Source: Spirogloea muscicola
Lineage: Eukaryota; Streptophyta; Zygnematophyceae; Spirogloeales; Spirogloeaceae
Assembly: GCA_009602725.1 (NCBI GenBank)
Contig: WELB01000012.1
Span: 946,941-975,241, forward strand
Length of the DNA: 28,301 nt
Direction: 5' to 3'
Part shown: positions 11,031-28,301 of the stretch, in pieces
Layout: every line of letters starts with the position of its first letter
Numbering within the stretch: position 1 is the stretch's first letter
The notes under the pieces: model-generated
Told to the model about the DNA's origin: nothing
Seen by the model: the letters and a program-made list of their open reading frames with translations, nothing else
Databases searched by the model: none
Made by a program: the position numbers and the translations under genes

Positions 11031-11129
11031 ACAGCAGTAAGCGAACTCTCAGCTATTGCCTTCCACTGGTAGAGTTGCTTTTCTTTGCCAGCTTGCATCC
11101 ACATTTCTGAGTCGAACGAATGAAAGTAA

Positions 11130-11512
11130 ACCAGCAGCAAGCCATTTGCGCCAAAGGCTCCGTGTACGTCGACGGCGAGTGGAGACAAACTCGTTTCCCA
11201 CCGGGTGATCCGAATATTTCCGTTCTTTGGCGCCTGCCGCTTTGGCGGACTGCGTAGCCCGCCTCCTCCGACGAGAGTTTGGCGCTCCTGGAATCAAAAG
11301 AGTCAGTCGTGACAACGTCGGCAATGAGCCGAGGCCCCCCGCCGAGGGCGATGGCGACGAGATCGGCGCGCCGGGTGTGGAGGCGGCCATCCGCCCCAGC
11401 GGTCGGAGGCATGATGCTGGTATTCTCGAGCGCCACAGACCTCCACGAATATGCCAAACATGGTATTGCGTTGCTAGTCGTGGGTTTCGGTCCGCTCGCC
11501 TCCCCGTGGGCA
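11130..11512 (-). mobile_element. LINE-like segment, inverted 5' part
   Basis: The minus-strand reading gives ENTSIMPPTAGADGRLHTRR, then RADLVAIALGGGPRLIADVV, TTDSFDSRSAKLSSEEAGYA, KYSDHPVGNEF and, after a frameshift, SPLAVDVHGAFGANG at the left end. The upstream limit at the junction is about GERTETHD (near 11500). This is the part of the source protein just before the portion found in plus orientation at 11530-11925. The pair fits a LINE 5' inversion. Confidence 0.7.
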
Positions 11513-11529
11513 CCCCCGTGCGCTTCCTT

Positions 11530-11925
11530 AGGACTCGCTGGCTTGACCTTCTCCAGCGCCTTGCGCGGCGTGCAGTGGCCCGCCGCCAAGAGCAGCAGAG
11601 CGAGCAGCCTGGCTTCCATGCCGCCGGGTCCCTTGCTCAAGATTTCCGGATGGGCTTGGCCGTTTACCCGCAGCGGTCCCTTGCCTTCGCTGTCCACTTG
11701 CGTGCAGGCCGCGCCTTGGCTGCTGGATTTTTTTAATTATTTCCGGCACCGTTTTGTGGCCTTTGTGGCCTGCGAATATTGTCCATTCTTTTCTGGCCTG
11801 CCTTTGCTAGCCCCTCTTTCTATGGGCGAGCAATTTCTCTTGGCTGCGGCCTCTGGTTTCCGTCAGGGCGTTGTCTATCCGCCTGCTGGCTGTTCCAATT
11901 TGCACGTACTGACTAGAGGTTACTG
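11530..11925 (+). mobile_element. LINE-like tail, direct 3' part, with insertion
   Basis: It begins at TRWLDLLQRLARRAVARRQE and continues SLAQDFRMGLAVYPQRSLAF and VHLRAGRALAA. A 113-bp insertion breaks it, and it resumes as LAAASGFRQGVVYPPAGCSN and LHVLTRGY with a TGA at 11924-11926. Its first residues are contiguous, in the source protein, with the left end of the inverted segment at 11130. The 3'UTR (CTTGCTGCCGTCTTAGCGCC) and a fragment with CACCAGTCAATTTGGCAGCG follow. Confidence 0.75.
11715..11849 (+). mobile_element. 113-bp short-element insertion with target duplication
   Basis: CTTGGCTGCTG (11715-11725) and CTTGGCTGCGG (11839-11849) flank 11726-11838. Excision restores the LINE reading ALAAASGFRQG. 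The insert begins with a T-rich GATTTTTTTAATTATTT segment and ends with the CTTTGCTAG hairpin variant (TTCTGGCCTGCCTTTGCTAG), matching 1582-1635. Confidence 0.6.
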
Positions 11926-21600: not shown

Positions 21601-24463
21601 CATTGCACAATCAGCAGTTATCCCGATCTCAGGCTGCTAATAGTGAAATGTAAGGCAGCTCACCGCGTCTTCAACCACTAAGTGCACCATCTTGGGCTTG
21701 TACACGAGGTTCACCACTTGCTCCCAGGTCAGTGGTATAGATCCTCTCACCTGCAAGAGCATCACAAAGAATTCTTCCTTCTTTGCTGACTTCACCACCT
21801 AATACCTACGAGCTATGAGTATGCTGACATTGACCCAGAAGGTGAAGGTTGTGAGTGACAATCATGGCAAGCACATCGTGGCCACAGACAGTCCTCCAAC
21901 TTCGCAAGATGGACGCTTGTTGGCGCATGAAGAGGCGTGCATTAATTCAAGTGGCCTGCAGTGCAGATTACACGGTATGTCCATATATGTAGGCACCTAA
22001 CCATCATGTACAGGACACGCCACGATGGCACAGCAGACTGGAGGATGAGAAGCTGACCTGTACAAAGGCAGCAATTTTGCCATTGACCTCAACAATCTGT
22101 TCACTCTCCACGTAATTAGCAACAGCTCCAGTCTTATCAGCCCCTCTCCTCCACATGCGGGTTCCTGTCAGAGGACAGGAACAACCTCTTGTGCTTGTGC
22201 ATGGCAGTTGGCTTCAAGAAACATAGTGGAGAAGCTTACGTAGGAAGGAGAAAAAAAGGGCAGAAAGTCCATGAAAAGCTCTGCTGTGCATTATGGCTTA
22301 CCAATGCGCTGTGTATTTCGCCTAGCAATAAGAGTCACAAGCACAGGCTTGCCATGAACATCAATCTGCAGGTTTTGAAAGCTTGACTAGCCGTCAAGGA
22401 AAATCTTGGGGGGCTTCATGCAGCACACAGATCGACACGCAAGAGCCAGTAACACGTGCCATAGGTTCCTGATTTTGTGAGCTATATATTACAAGCTAAT
22501 CGAATCTGCTGACATAGCCCGACGATGCGCTTGACAACTGTGAGGGTGAAGCACGCTCCAGTGACAGTCTTAGCTTGTAACGAGAGCGCCACCAGTATCA
22601 ATGTTTGAGAAAGCAGTGCCAGTGTCACGAAGAGATCTGTTTGCTTCCAACATTTGCTTCCAACTGCAATATAAGATTTGCATCTCTTTGTGCTAGTATT
22701 CTGGAGCAGGATATTGCCTTGCATGACTGGAAGAAGGAAAGGCTCCATCTGCTTCAGACACAATTAACAGGTTGTCGAGGTGTAAGTATGTGATTGTCTC
22801 TCCCGACCTATGAAACTGCTCAACATGACAAGAGAGTTGGTGAACGCTGGCATTGTCAAAGCTGGTCGATGCAAGCTCACCCCTTTGGCAGCTGCAATGC
22901 TTTTCAAGATGTACTTATTCCAGAAAAACAAGGGGTCGGCCTGTACATAATGGCAGAGTTAAATAGTTGCTCTTCAGCAATAAGGTATGGTGCGACTAGT
23001 GAAACATACTTTCCTCAGAATATCACATCTTTCTTAGAGAACACATTCACACACTCTGTCTTGAGTAGCCCGTCCAATTTCAAGTCTACACTCATAGAGA
23101 CTATCAGCTGAACTATGTGGAGATCTTAATGCCGTAGTGTGCTCATCGCCGTCATTACCTGCTTATATAGGGGACGATCAGATGCAGCACCACCCATAGA
23201 AAAGGTCTTCTGAGTGCTGCAAGCGAGAGCTTTGAACACATCAATTTGAACACATCAATTCCTCGTATCGTAGGGGAATATGATGCTCGTTGATATAGAG
23301 CAGAAATGAATGCAGAGATACTCACTTGACTGTCAAGTCAGTTGTGTAAGAGAAGAAGAGGCCATGAGATGCTTCAGCACTTCGCAGCCTCCGCAGAAAG
23401 TGCTTCTCGTCCTCCCTCTGCCAACACAGTTGCCAGTGATGGCTGAGACACCCTTAGAAGCTTGAGTCATGCTCCATCTACGGATACGTTGATACTGCAG
23501 GAAGCAAAAGCAATCCATTGATCTCCGAGCACTACACACCCCTCCACAACTGAAGCAGAAGTGCTGAAGAGCAGACTGATGTAGTCCTCAGAAAACTTCT
23601 TCTTCAGGAAGCTAAAGCCGAGTCAAGTAAGGTGGATAGAAATTGCATGACTAAATCTTTCATAAAGTCCTCGCCTATGGCAAATCCTGCGAAGGGGTCC
23701 AGGTTCACTGCAGACTACAAAGTGCTTGAGATGGGCCTGCTGGAACCACTTATACCTGTGCTGGAGATAACACTTTGAGTGTGGGGCTGCAGGCAAGATG
23801 TCTGCACCCTGTGACGCGGAAGACTTCCCCGCCTCGATATGTTCCAACTTTCTTGCGGCTGGTGATGAAGATTACATAAGAACCTGCACGCACGTAGAAT
23901 TGACCCTCGGCTTACTACACAAGCATAGTGGCTCTGCACAATTTATGCAGACTTCTGGTAATTAACCAAAGCAGCGACAACAGAGTAGCAGCACGGAACC
24001 AGCCTCACGAGCAAGGTCGTCAGACACTGGACTGATCATGCAATGGCCGGGTGCAGCACCTGAGAGGAGCTCGACGATGCCCAGGAGGCCGAAAACGATG
24101 ACGGGGGGCGCGATGGCCGCGTCCCTGAACGGAGGTTGATCTGGCAGGACTTGCTTGACTGACCATCAGTGCTGAGCAGCTTGACAAGGTGCTCCAAGAG
24201 TGGCCCCCTGCCGTCTCTCGCGCCACTCAGCCAACGAGAAACCTAGCAACGTCCAACGGAGCTGGAGGATGGGAAGCTGTGGCGGCTGCCGTCTCGAGAA
24301 GCGCAGCGAGGGGCTCACCGAGCAGGCTGAGCTCGCCGCTGCGGCGGGCCACCGTCAGGCACTGCGGCGCAGCGCCGTCGGCGGGCTCCAGCACGAACCG
24401 CTCGCGGTACTGCCACAGCCGCAAGCGCGCGGAGAGCCTCGGCGCCGCCGCCGCCGCCGCCAT
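18627..24463 (-). CDS. SAC-domain phosphoinositide phosphatase (SAC1/RHD4-like)
   Basis: About 21 exons join in phase. They are 24463 to about 24240, then 24140 or 24158-24060, 23883-23756, 23417-23326, 23216-23159, 22940-22881, 22748-22718, a short unresolved exon, 22365-22302, 22164-22058, 21750-21664, 21252-21175, 20994-20921, 20673-20575, 20453-20354, 20146-20038, 19903-19831, 19511-19418, 19283-19197, 19074-19008 and 18775-18627. The N-terminus ([17 protein letters not shown]) and mid-domain ([71 protein letters not shown]) match plant SAC6-8. The active site CIDCLDRTN (CX5R) is intact at about 20370, followed by [20 protein letters not shown]. Two C-terminal hydrophobic helices ([32 protein letters not shown]) would anchor it in ER/Golgi-type membranes. 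Family role: dephosphorylates PI4P and related lipids. Uncertain points are the exon 1/2 junction, one mini-exon in 22366-22717 and possibly one in 23418-23755. The 22718 donor appears to be GC. Confidence 0.93.
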
Positions 24464-24676
24464 GGCCGCCGCCGCCGCCAGACTGGCTTTTACAGGCGCT
24501 CGTTTAGCAAGGAATCTGTAAAATCAGTAACAATATTTTACCAGCAGCCGCATTTTACTCCTCTTCCCAGCGGCCTAAATCAATTTGGTCACAGTCACTC
24601 CTACTGCCATGATTTAGTAGCACTCACAGTACCCCCCGGGCCAGGTCGCGGCGGCGGCGGCGGCGGCGGCGGCCGC
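24464..24676. promoter_or_regulatory. Shared bidirectional promoter region
   Basis: 213 bp separate the ATG of the minus-strand SAC gene (24463) and the ATG of the plus-strand ePHD gene (24677). GCC/CGG runs sit at both edges (24441-24480 and 24648-24674). Between them is an AT-rich core (24525-24620) with AACAATATTTTACC and a CCTAAATCAATTTGG segment. The layout suggests divergent transcription from one promoter. No TATA box was identified with confidence. Confidence 0.5.
24648..24674. repeat. (CGG)n microsatellite
   Basis: About nine CGG triplets sit immediately before the ATG at 24677 (GCCGCATGG, a good Kozak context). It is in frame as poly-Gly if translation began upstream. Confidence 0.85.
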
Positions 24677-25305
24677 ATGGCGGCTCCAGTCGAGCTCACG
24701 CCACTCGAGGATCCATTGCCGCCGTCGCCGCCGCCCGCGCCTGCGGCGGAGACATCTCTCTGCGGTGCTTCCGCTTCCGATGGCTCTGGAGCTCGTCAGG
24801 GAGGCGCCGATTCCGCTTCCGATGGCTCTGGAGCTCGTCAGGGAGGCGCTGACACCAGTAGGGCTCACGGCGGCGCCGCGGCCGAGCACCTGGCTGCCGT
24901 CGCGGCCGCGGCCAGCGGCGCGCCGGAGCGCGTAATTGCGGCGGCTGGCACGAGCTCGCAAGTCCTCGTGCAGCACGACATCAAGCTGCTGGATGGGCCC
25001 AAGTGCGCGCTCTGCGGGGGTGTTTCTGGTGACAACGGCGAGCGCTTGGAGCAGGAAGGCGAAGGTGCACATCATCGCGGACGGCCTTGCTCAGCTCACA
25101 GTGGAATTTGGTCGTGTCTGCAGAGGTTTGCTGCTCAGACACTATCGGCTTGTCGAGCTTGGCAGATGCTGAGGCCAGGCAGGACGCCGGCTTAGGCTTT
25201 TCAGAAGGCCCTGGCTGGCTTGGTCCCCTGCTCGGCCCCCTCAGTGACAGGATCAGTGGCGGAGGCCTGTGGGTGCACCGAGAGTGTGCTGTTTGGAGCC
25301 CTGAG
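24677..25305 (+). CDS. Extended PHD finger protein, 5' part only
   Basis: Exon 1 (24677-25019) encodes an Ala/Pro-rich N-terminus, a duplicated 14-residue unit, LVQHDIKLLDGP, then KCALCGG. It joins in phase to exon 2 (25166-25305), which gives DAEARQDAGLGFSEGPGW, LGPLLGPLSDRISGGG and LWVHRECAVWSPE, with a GT donor at 25306. The CxxC pair, PGWLG.LLGP.(S/N)DR and WVHxxCAVWSPE(V) are the first half of the extended PHD found in plant AAA-ATPase chromatin proteins (At3g15120 type, related to ATAD2). Those proteins continue with the second zinc site, an AAA+ ATPase and further domains. None of that is present before the convergent murD gene begins, so the gene is truncated here or continues elsewhere. 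If functional, the complete protein would bind chromatin in the nucleus. The acceptor at 25165 and the alternative of one continuous frame were weighed; only the spliced form yields the ePHD motif. Confidence 0.7.
24769..24852. repeat. 42-bp tandem repeat, two units
   Basis: 24769-24810 and 24811-24852 are identical except for one C/T difference. They encode SASDGSGARQGGAD twice, in frame, within the low-complexity N-terminus of the ePHD protein. This looks like a recent slippage duplication. Confidence 0.9.
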
Positions 25306-25423
25306 GTGAGCTGCAGCACTAGCAGCTCCTCACAGTTGTCAAGTCCTTCATAGATAATCTTCAGTCTGCAATATTAGTAGGTTTGGAGTACGTCACTTAC
25401 TGATGCGCGTGCATGACACCTCA

Positions 25424-28240
25424 TCAGCCAGCTGAAGCAATGGAAGACGATGACTTGAGAAGCGAGGTTTTGGAGCCCTCACCGAGCTGCATGCGGTGCG
25501 GCGGGGGGCTCAGGGCACTGATGCCGGCCTGTATGTCGCCCTCACACAGGCCGACATCCAGGCCCAGCGCCAAGAGTGCCGCTGTGCCAGCATTGTGCGC
25601 GTTGTGCAATCCAATAGCCTTGAGGGAGGTCAAGTACAGCCGGGCCTCGACGCCAGTCGTCGGGACTGCAACGATTGCCCTCCTAGCCTGGCTGTCCAGC
25701 TGGCCAGAGGCAAAACCAACTAAGTCAGTGATTGTCTGCTGTCATCATCACGATGCTTCTGTCAGAGTTGGTTCTGTCAGAGTCTGGCTTTGCTGCAATG
25801 GGAGCAGGCAAGATGGACGCTTGCACTTCTCAGCTTGCATGACAGAAACAGGGCCTGTGATTCAGCCTTTAGAACAATAAGTACAGCCAATGCAGTGCCC
25901 ATGACGACCAGGCCGCTATTGAGACGAGGCCCGAGATAAGCAGGGCCCGAAACAAGCAGGGCCCGAGAAAAGCTGGGTGGCGGAGCAGCACAGAAGGTGC
26001 TCGGCACCTGGACGCCAGGAAGGCCCCCCAGCCAGGCGCGCTTGCCGCTGCTGCCAGCTAGTGCGCTCAGCCTCCGGAGCATGACGTCATCTGCAGCAAC
26101 GAAGCGCAAGATGACGGGCAATCAGATCAATTTCCAAGATTGTCATCTTCAGCACCTGCTCAAGCAGACAACGCGAAGAGGGCAATGAATACCTCCATCT
26201 GCTCTTGAGCCTCGGCATATGCTTTCTTCTGAGGTCCACATTGTCTTCTAGAAAACTCAATGCTTTATCTTAGCTCGCTACGCGAATCCGTGGCCAGTTC
26301 ACGAAGCAGCACAAGGGAAAGCGAGCCAAGAGTCTCACATTCCTACTCTGTGGAATGATGGCCAGGTCGGACGACTCCTGCCGTGCAAAAACGCGGCACT
26401 TGGCAGCGCCGTAGGCCTCCATGGAGCTGTGGCGTTCCAGGTGGTCTGGCGTCAGGTTCAGCACCACTGCAGCCTGCACCAAATCAAAGGCAGTCAAGAA
26501 CCTTCAGTGATATTTAATACCTGACTGCACAACTGAAAGCCATGACCTGAGCCGTAAAGGCCACAGCGCAAGTTCAAGAAGGCCAGGGCTTCAATAATCA
26601 CTTCAATTCTAGCAGATGAAGGAAGAGGGCAGTGAGGTTCAAGAGGCCTTGTGCAAGCAAAGGGTACACAGATAGGGCACAATAACGCTGGACGTGGATC
26701 TTGCGGGGCCGCTTGCTCGCCTTGGGCTTCAAGTCGCCAGGTAGCTCCATCTGGTAGCTGCTAACCTCCACCACGGCAGCCTGGACGCAGTGGACCACTC
26801 TTAACGACCACTATTGGTGGATGAACAACATTATTGTGCCGTAGCTGCACCAAAACAAGGTGCGACGAAAAATGCGGGTCGACCATTCTGACATGGCTTG
26901 ACCTGCTCATGCGTGGTGAATACAGTCTGCAAATCGATTCCAGATATTCTAGATACAAAGGGGCGCCCAAGTGGTTGCCAGTTACCTGATAAGGAACTTT
27001 GTCAGGCGGTTGTGCGAGACACTCGAGCGCAGCACAAGAGAGGGGCTGGCCCAAATTGCCTCCAACGAACGCGCGCACGCCGGCGAATTGCAGCAGCTGA
27101 CAGAAGCCACCGACATAACTTTTCAGAGTGAAGTCCCAAGTTGCCTATACTCACTTAACCCTCATGAACAGGACCTAAGGAACAGACAGGCGAGGAGCAG
27201 CGACAGTGAATCGAGCCCGCCCTTCCACAACCCCAGTCTTTGCCGCAGTCGCTCGGTGAGTGACGGAGGTTTGCGGCGGCACCTGACCGGTGAAGGTTGT
27301 GACTGTGGACTTGCCATTGGTGCCGGTGATGGCTGCAATCTTGACCTCCTTTGGCAGGGCCGCCGCCGCGAAGGCGAGCTCCGACAGCGCCGGCACGCCC
27401 TGCCCGCACCGCACCAAGTGGTGGCGTCCATTAGGCCAGCCAAACGATAATGGACAAAGCTGATGCAAAATGCGGATGATTGTGAGTCAAGATCAGACGA
27501 AAGAAGCATTTGGGTCCAAGGGTTCAAGCATCTACGGTTAGGGTTTAGGGTCAGTGAAATCATATGTAGGCCTGTCTTAGAGAGCCTGGGTGACAGACCA
27601 GCCGGATGGCCGCGGCGACGTCTGGCTGCGCCACAGGCACTCCCGGCGACAGGACAATGAGCGACGCGCTCGCGAGGGTGGCTGCGCAGTGGGGCCCAGC
27701 CACAGTTTGGACGCGCGCCGCGTCGAACCCCGCCAGGTCCGGATGTTCCTGAGGCCCTCAACACACGATAGAGAAAATAACTTAAGCAACCACTATACCA
27801 TATGAAAGGTAATAAACGCTTTGGTTATACATCTAGGACCGCGCCAATTAGCCACCGATCAACCAAGCCTGGGGAGAATGAATCAGGGCGTAATTCGCAA
27901 TGATGGGGGTTACTTAGGGTTTGCCTTTAGGGTAGGCGGAGGAAGTCAACCACTAAGTGTCAATCGTCGCCACAGGGCGTCGCAGCCCACCTCGAGCGGC
28001 GGCGTCGCCGGGTTGCTGTCCATGGCGACCACGTGGTCGGCGCCGCGCGCGAGGGCCAGCCGCACCGCCGCCCTGCCGGACGCGCCGAGGCCCACGACCT
28101 GCCCCGCTCGCCCGCCATTTCCGGCGCGCAGCACAGCCGTCATCGGCGCCGGCCGTGGCGGGTCGCCAGCACTGGCAGCAGCCCCCCAGAGTGCCCAATC
28201 GTCGGCTCACCGCCACAGTCTGGCCGCGGAGGTCGTCCAT
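25424..28240 (-). CDS. murD: MurD, UDP-MurNAc-L-Ala:D-Glu ligase, C-terminus missing
   Basis: Nine exons join in phase: 28240-28211, 28098-27991, 27748-27599, 27399-27283, 27096-26986, 26780-26721, 26473-26347, 26090-26008 and 25699-25483, or read through to the TGA at 25424. Domain 1 has VVGLGASGRAAVRLALARGA and LIVLSPGVPVAQPDVAAA. Domain 2 has the ATP loop ITGTNGKSTVTTFTGQ, FVGGNLGQPL, AAVVEVSSYQMELPG and VLNLTPDHLERHSSMEAYG. Domain 3 starts with IGLHNAHNAGTAALLALGLD and LSPPPHRMQL. This is the full order of bacterial MurD, which adds D-glutamate to UDP-MurNAc-L-Ala. The product is about 353 residues, against roughly 440 in E. coli. The NDSKATN segment and everything after it are not found. 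The intron after exon 6 has a GC donor (CCCAAG|GCGAGC). The frame is open upstream of the ATG (poly-Ala from the GCC repeat) to the window edge, so a plastid transit peptide could lie outside. Eukaryotic MurD is expected to serve plastid peptidoglycan. Confidence 0.88.
27538..27546 (-). promoter_or_regulatory. Telo-box in a murD intron
   Basis: TTAGGGTTT (AAACCCTAA on the coding strand), extended by a further AGGG to nearly two TTTAGGG units, lies in the intron between the third and fourth murD exons. The element class is known from plants, but function here is inference. Confidence 0.4.
27914..27922 (-). promoter_or_regulatory. Telo-box in the second murD intron
   Basis: TTAGGGTTT lies in the intron between exons two and three, with a further TTTAGGG five bases later (27926-27932). 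On the coding strand this is AAACCCTAA downstream of the translation start, a position also seen for telo-boxes in plant genes. Confidence 0.4.
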
Positions 28241-28247
28241 GGCGCCC

Positions 28248-28249
<2 letters not shown>

Positions 28250-28283
<34 letters not shown>
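28250..28283. repeat. (GCC)n microsatellite at the murD start
   Basis: About eleven triplets end eight bases upstream of the murD ATG. On the coding strand they are in frame as poly-alanine (TGC then GCC repeats, GGG GGC GCC ATG). They could therefore be part of a longer N-terminus rather than a 5'UTR. Confidence 0.85.
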
Positions 28284-28284
<1 letters not shown>

Positions 28285-28301
28285 ATCTAACCCGCGCCCG
28301 C

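Follow-up and report, generated by a model that had tools for sequence, protein, structure and literature searches.

The window, which is the whole 28,301-nucleotide stretch of Spirogloea muscicola DNA that was analysed (C12:946941-975241), most likely carries the first nine of 13 exons of a nuclear murD gene that has two further homeologous copies in a triplicated streptophyte genome. This copy appears to be cut in intron 9 and no active ligase is expected from it. We give this reading a probability of about three in four. The assembly that was searched consists of 153.1 Mb in 471 contigs, and the two other murD copies are found on contigs C14 and C38.

Exon structure of murD in the window

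The murD gene of the window lies on the minus strand. Nine exons were modelled from 28240 to 25483, and the spliced product has 334 amino acids. The exon model is conceptual and was built from copy-to-copy comparison and motifs. The exons and the open frame that precedes them are as follows.

28241 to 28301, minus strand: open frame 5' of the ATG (RARVRCAAAAAAAAAAAGGA) that enters the N gap C12:975242-980864 and may be the last part of a transit peptide
28211 to 28240, minus strand: MurD exon 1 (MDDLRGQTVA), from copy comparison
27991 to 28098, minus strand: MurD exon 2 (VVGLGASG..., domain 1), from copy comparison
27599 to 27748, minus strand: MurD exon 3 (LSPGVP, domain 1), from copy comparison
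27283 to 27399, minus strand: MurD exon 4 (ITGTNGKST, ATP loop), from copy comparison and E. coli alignment
26986 to 27096, minus strand: MurD exon 5 (VGGNLGQP), from copy comparison
26721 to 26780, minus strand: MurD exon 6 (EVSSYQME), with the GC-AG intron after it, from copy comparison
26347 to 26473, minus strand: MurD exon 7 (LNLTPDHL, AAKCR), from copy comparison and E. coli alignment
26008 to 26090, minus strand: MurD exon 8, from copy comparison
25483 to 25699, minus strand: MurD exon 9 (GLHNAHN ... PPPHRMQL), the last one present, from copy comparison

Intron 6 is GC-AG, whereas the seven other introns are GT-AG. The exon order and the splice sites are common to the C14 and C38 copies. 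The gene as assembled stops within intron 9, and exons 10-13 are absent. The GC-AG form of intron 6 (26474-26720) is conserved in all three murD copies. Intron 3 exhibits about two telomere-like TTTAGGG units at 27537-27553.

The open frame that precedes the murD ATG is rich in Arg and Ala, and its VRC/A end resembles a transit-peptide cleavage site. N gaps lie immediately 5' of murD in all three copies (C12:975242-980864, C14 up to 744787, and C38 from 322033), and the presequence is therefore unreadable in each of them. GC-rich repeats adjoin the N gaps upstream of murD.

Family membership and motifs

The product of exons 1-9 (334 amino acids) matches the NCBIfam family TIGR01087 with an E-value of 6.3e-52 and 177.1 bits over profile positions 2-309 of 441. 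This match and the introns bear out the original prediction of a MurD-type gene that is split by spliceosomal introns. The score lies under the curated whole-protein cut-off of 211.95 bits because the match covers no profile position beyond 309, which indicates the right family and an incomplete protein. The MurD of C38 scores 308.2 bits over profile positions 2-437 of 441, which is over the cut-off. The window protein is above the Pfam cut-offs of both MurD-like_N and Mur_ligase_M. Mur_ligase_C is matched by the C38 protein but not by the window protein. The closest solved structures are bacterial MurD (best E-value 1.1e-28, obtained with a 297-amino acid query from an earlier exon model without exons 1 and 8).

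The alignment with E. coli MurD (NC_000913, locus b0088) exhibits whole domain 1 and domain 2 motifs in the window protein, which are VGLGASG, GTNGKST, EVSSYQ, NLTPDHL, and AAKCR, as had been claimed from the sequence beforehand. The ATP loop ITGTNGKST of exon 4 aligns with ITGSNGKST of E. coli MurD. The lysine of AAKCR in exon 7 aligns with the lysine of AAKLR in E. coli. This lysine of domain 2 corresponds to the position that is carbamylated in bacterial MurD. Domain 3 of MurD bears substrate-binding residues, and NDSKATN and SPACASFD/LD are its motifs. Both are missing from the window copy, whereas C14 and C38 have exons that encode them. A carbamylated lysine of MurD is mentioned in the excerpts of PMC9434261.

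The C38 protein is 40% identical to E. coli MurD and has the same domain 1 and domain 2 motifs. The algal gene differs from that of E. coli in that it is nuclear and intron-split, with a possible presequence that enters a gap, and the window copy further differs in that it is without most of domain 3.

The three murD copies

The aligned pieces of the three copies, introns included, are 84-91% identical, and introns 1-8 differ by 14-16% between copies. The copies on C14 and C38 have 13 exons each, and the domain 3 motifs NDSKATN and SPACASFDEF are encoded by exons 10-13. C38 carries an intact copy whose 485 amino acids read without interruption. In the C14 copy, which is also complete in its 13 exons, exon 3 has a net deletion of 7 bp that shifts the frame, so that the first stop is codon 187 of the conceptual coding sequence. 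This deletion may be an assembly error. Only C38 reads through among the three copies. The claim that the window gene encodes an intact MurD is hence not upheld for the sequence as assembled.

Exons 1-9 of the three copies have pairwise dN/dS of 0.18-0.25 and dS of 0.13-0.18. Codon differences confined to a single copy, counted with nine codons that differ three ways set aside, are nonsynonymous and synonymous in the ratio 4:11 for the window, 6:16 for C38, and 12:22 for C14. The 4:11 ratio on the window branch suggests that the window murD was under selection until recently, or that it is whole in reality.

The constrained and open exons 1-9 are also consistent with expression of the truncated copy as a shortened protein that has domains 1 and 2 and plays another role. 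Read-through into intron 9 would add 19 further codons (HRMQLGEGSKTSLLKSSSSIASAG) before a stop. However, domain 3 bears substrate-binding residues of MurD, and a simple recent loss accounts for the same facts. We consider such a protein very unlikely. A more elaborate version would be a return to a single working murD after the triplication by two independent breakages, where the broken window copy still yields a two-domain MurD-like protein that binds substrate without ligating it and may regulate plastid wall synthesis; this is highly doubtful.

The junction at which the assembled murD ends

The homology of the window to C14 ends at 25,424 and that to C38 ends at 25,407. An exon 10 query gave only chance-level matches in the window and no homologue. 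The junction and the gene to its left are listed below.

25395 to 25407, no strand: junction, with collinearity to C14 and C38 (MurD) on the right and to C123 and C331 (PHD/AAA gene) on the left, from alignments
24659 to 25310 (approximate), plus strand: 5' part of a PHD-finger/AAA-ATPase gene, identified by reading

The stretch at 24,000-25,420 of the window matches C331 (84%) and C123 (87% and 91%, in two pieces), and these matches end at 25,373 and 25,394, respectively. This 1421-base DNA query gave 78 matches, where the only long ones besides the window itself are those on C331 and C123; the remaining matches, of 26-48 bases, fall where the query is a GC-rich repeat and were left uncounted. 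C123 and C331 are mutually collinear for about 6.8 kb beyond the junction point (86.7%), and C14 and C38 are mutually collinear for 6.7 kb beyond the point where their homology to the window ends. The C123 continuation carries PHD-like and AAA-ATPase exons that are lost at the junction on C12, and the junction thus cuts two genes at once.

The loss of the 3' halves of both genes at one point is what would also be seen if the contig were chimeric at 25,395-25,407. The third murD would then be whole in the living alga with exons 10-13 on another contig, which is consistent with the constrained appearance of the window exons (4 nonsynonymous to 11 synonymous differences). However, the alignments show neither an N run nor an extended shared word at that point; this speaks for a real break and against a repeat-driven misjoin, though not decisively. 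We regard a chimeric contig as possible but rather unlikely. Under the preferred reading of a truncated copy, a rearrangement would have cut murD inside intron 9 and removed most of domain 3, with the junction presumably real rather than an assembly error. The loss of most of domain 3 is the reason that an active ligase is not expected. The window copy is probably not a working ligase, judging from its sequence, unless the contig is chimeric.

Genes of the peptidoglycan pathway

The original prediction had proposed that other mur genes, mraY, ddl, and PBP genes be sought in the same genome. MurA, MurB, MurC, MurE, MurF, MraY, and class-A PBP matches were obtained, Ddl is only probable, and PF04101 did not turn up MurG among the two of its three matches that were read. 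Each match is to a single exon only, and exon-split genes easily escape profile searches of this kind. The MurA, MraY, MurC, and MurF matches, being single exons, do not reach the whole-protein TIGR cut-offs.

MurA matches are located on C106 and C10, with a MurA score far above that of aroA. MurB matches are located on C214 and C200, where that on C214 was confirmed by a second family comparison. MurC matches are located on C71, C45, and C32 (C71 and C45 confirmed by a second comparison) and MurF matches on C39, C8, and C42 (C39 and C8 likewise confirmed). MurE matches are located on C149 and C435. MraY matches are located on C261 and C185 and were confirmed by a second comparison. PBP transglycosylase exons are present on C3, C56, and C107, where one exon of C107 is best in the PBP1A family. 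The PBP transpeptidase is above the Pfam cut-off on C107 only, over positions 1-60 of 299 and with two internal stops.

Ddl is probably present, judging from sequence likeness. The PF07478 search of the genome gave no match, and TIGR01205 gave weak matches below the cut-off on C16, C223, and C345. A part of E. coli DdlB is 47% identical to locus L035 over 34 amino acids, and the reading of that locus (VKPVSDGCSTGVARL) resembles plant Ddl. The case is weakened by exon-length pieces of L035, of which two had no Pfam match and one had no NCBIfam match.

MurG was searched for with PF04101, which gave three matches; the two that were read are both ALG13-like, and the third is on C52. The two loci that were read (L021 and L022) were rejected as MurG, as their best NCBIfam families are other glycosyltransferases and E. 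coli MurG matched nothing there. Their sequence (FVTVGTTSFDALV ... ALMDNHQRELADEL) resembles ALG13.

A relic, with murD as the only survivor of a lost pathway, would be in keeping with two of three murD copies that look broken and with a MurG that was not found among the PF04101 matches read (two of three). However, exon-level matches to MurA, MurB, MurC, MurE, MurF, MraY, and class-A PBP are present and one intact murD remains on C38, which makes a relic scarcely probable. The claim that the murD gene implies a kept, or recently kept, peptidoglycan pathway agrees with these matches in the same genome.

The pathway genes occur in twos or threes. Both MurE copies have DDREECREAL near the C-terminus, and locus L002 shows an acidic N-terminal region ahead of MurE. 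DDREECREAL of MurE is named as a streptophyte consensus in the excerpts of PMC9434261, and those of PMC9065682 attribute a recent triplication of the genome to S. muscicola. The host of murD looks like a streptophyte alga on the strength of DDREECREAL in both MurE copies, and the triple copies would fit Spirogloea muscicola.

Genomic setting and origin of murD

C12 and C14 are collinear again beyond the N gap upstream of murD, in pieces that are 75-87% identical. C38 upstream of murD is all N in the stretch examined. A gene that was named by reading as choline-phosphate-cytidylyltransferase-like lies beyond the gap, from C12:980865 onward. Ten ORFs of the window outside murD gave no Pfam matches at an E-value of 0.01. 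A 245-bp unit is repeated twice at 401-890 of the window with a 96% match. The ORFs of that region contain a stretch like HTRRADLVAI...GGGPRIIADVVTTD, which was found again by reading near 11,053-11,736. This stretch, which is without a Pfam match, may belong to a mobile element.

The spliceosomal introns, the eukaryotic neighbours, and the collinearity argue that the window murD is nuclear and not bacterial contamination, in agreement with what had been predicted. The protein family itself is bacterial, which would suit contamination or a recent bacterial transfer. However, the intron positions are common to three diverged copies, and the PHD/AAA and choline-phosphate-cytidylyltransferase-like neighbours (the latter by reading) stand in collinear blocks. 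An intronless near-identical copy on a bacterial contig was not seen among this genome and 80 bacterial loci. The prokaryote scan by two peptide patterns gave at least 468 relatives, of which the best 80 were kept. A quick tree of 82 rows, from which the window copy was left out, gives the algal row a long branch of 1.68 within an unresolved 33-row group. That group spans several phyla and also holds rows of Pseudomonadota, Myxococcota, Binatota, and Thermodesulfobacteriota, which does not favour a recent bacterial source. The probability of such a source is close to negligible.

No cyanobacterium is named in the record titles of the best 80 of the at least 468 prokaryote relatives. The plasmid tblastn search gave, in the 15 rows listed out of 59 records, distant bacterial MurD only, with at most 35.1% identity. 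The excerpts of PMC9434261 report that P. patens MurD is nearest to the Fibrobacteres-Chlorobi-Bacteroidetes group, and those of PMC6946739 state that many of these enzymes are not of cyanobacterial origin.

Comparison with known systems and significance

If its activity follows its sequence, the MurD of C38 would carry out the usual MurD reaction, the ATP-dependent addition of D-glutamate to UDP-MurNAc-L-alanine. By analogy with what has been published for mosses and streptophyte algae, where the pathway would form a thin wall surrounding the chloroplast, MurD would be located in the plastid, and the C38 enzyme would most likely act inside it. Its product may be a precursor for plastid peptidoglycan that is used in chloroplast division.

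All core peptidoglycan enzymes have already been reported in all streptophyte algae according to the excerpts of PMC7455551, and several of the same core enzymes were found in this work, whereas MurG was not detected and Ddl is only probable. Moss pathway intermediates are reported in the excerpts of PMC9434261. Physcomitrium patens, Mesotaenium endlicherianum, and Klebsormidium nitens likewise have eukaryote-encoded mur genes, the MurE DDREECREAL extension, and the acidic N-terminal region in the same excerpts. However, comparing these moss and algal systems to the findings in this work, several genes here have three genomic copies, and one murD is truncated and another is frame-shifted. A published account of the state of the three murD copies was not found in the literature searched.

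The C38 copy is the one to choose over the window copy for the annotation or expression of MurD from Spirogloea muscicola, and the junction at 25,395-25,407 of the window is flagged as a point of the contig worth checking. The finding is already known in kind, and what is new is a small detail on the state of the murD copies. The findings in this work add a case that is consistent with the retention of plastid peptidoglycan genes by streptophyte algae, which is already in print. Beyond this, it is useful to know that one murD is intact, one is frame-shifted, and one is truncated by a junction.
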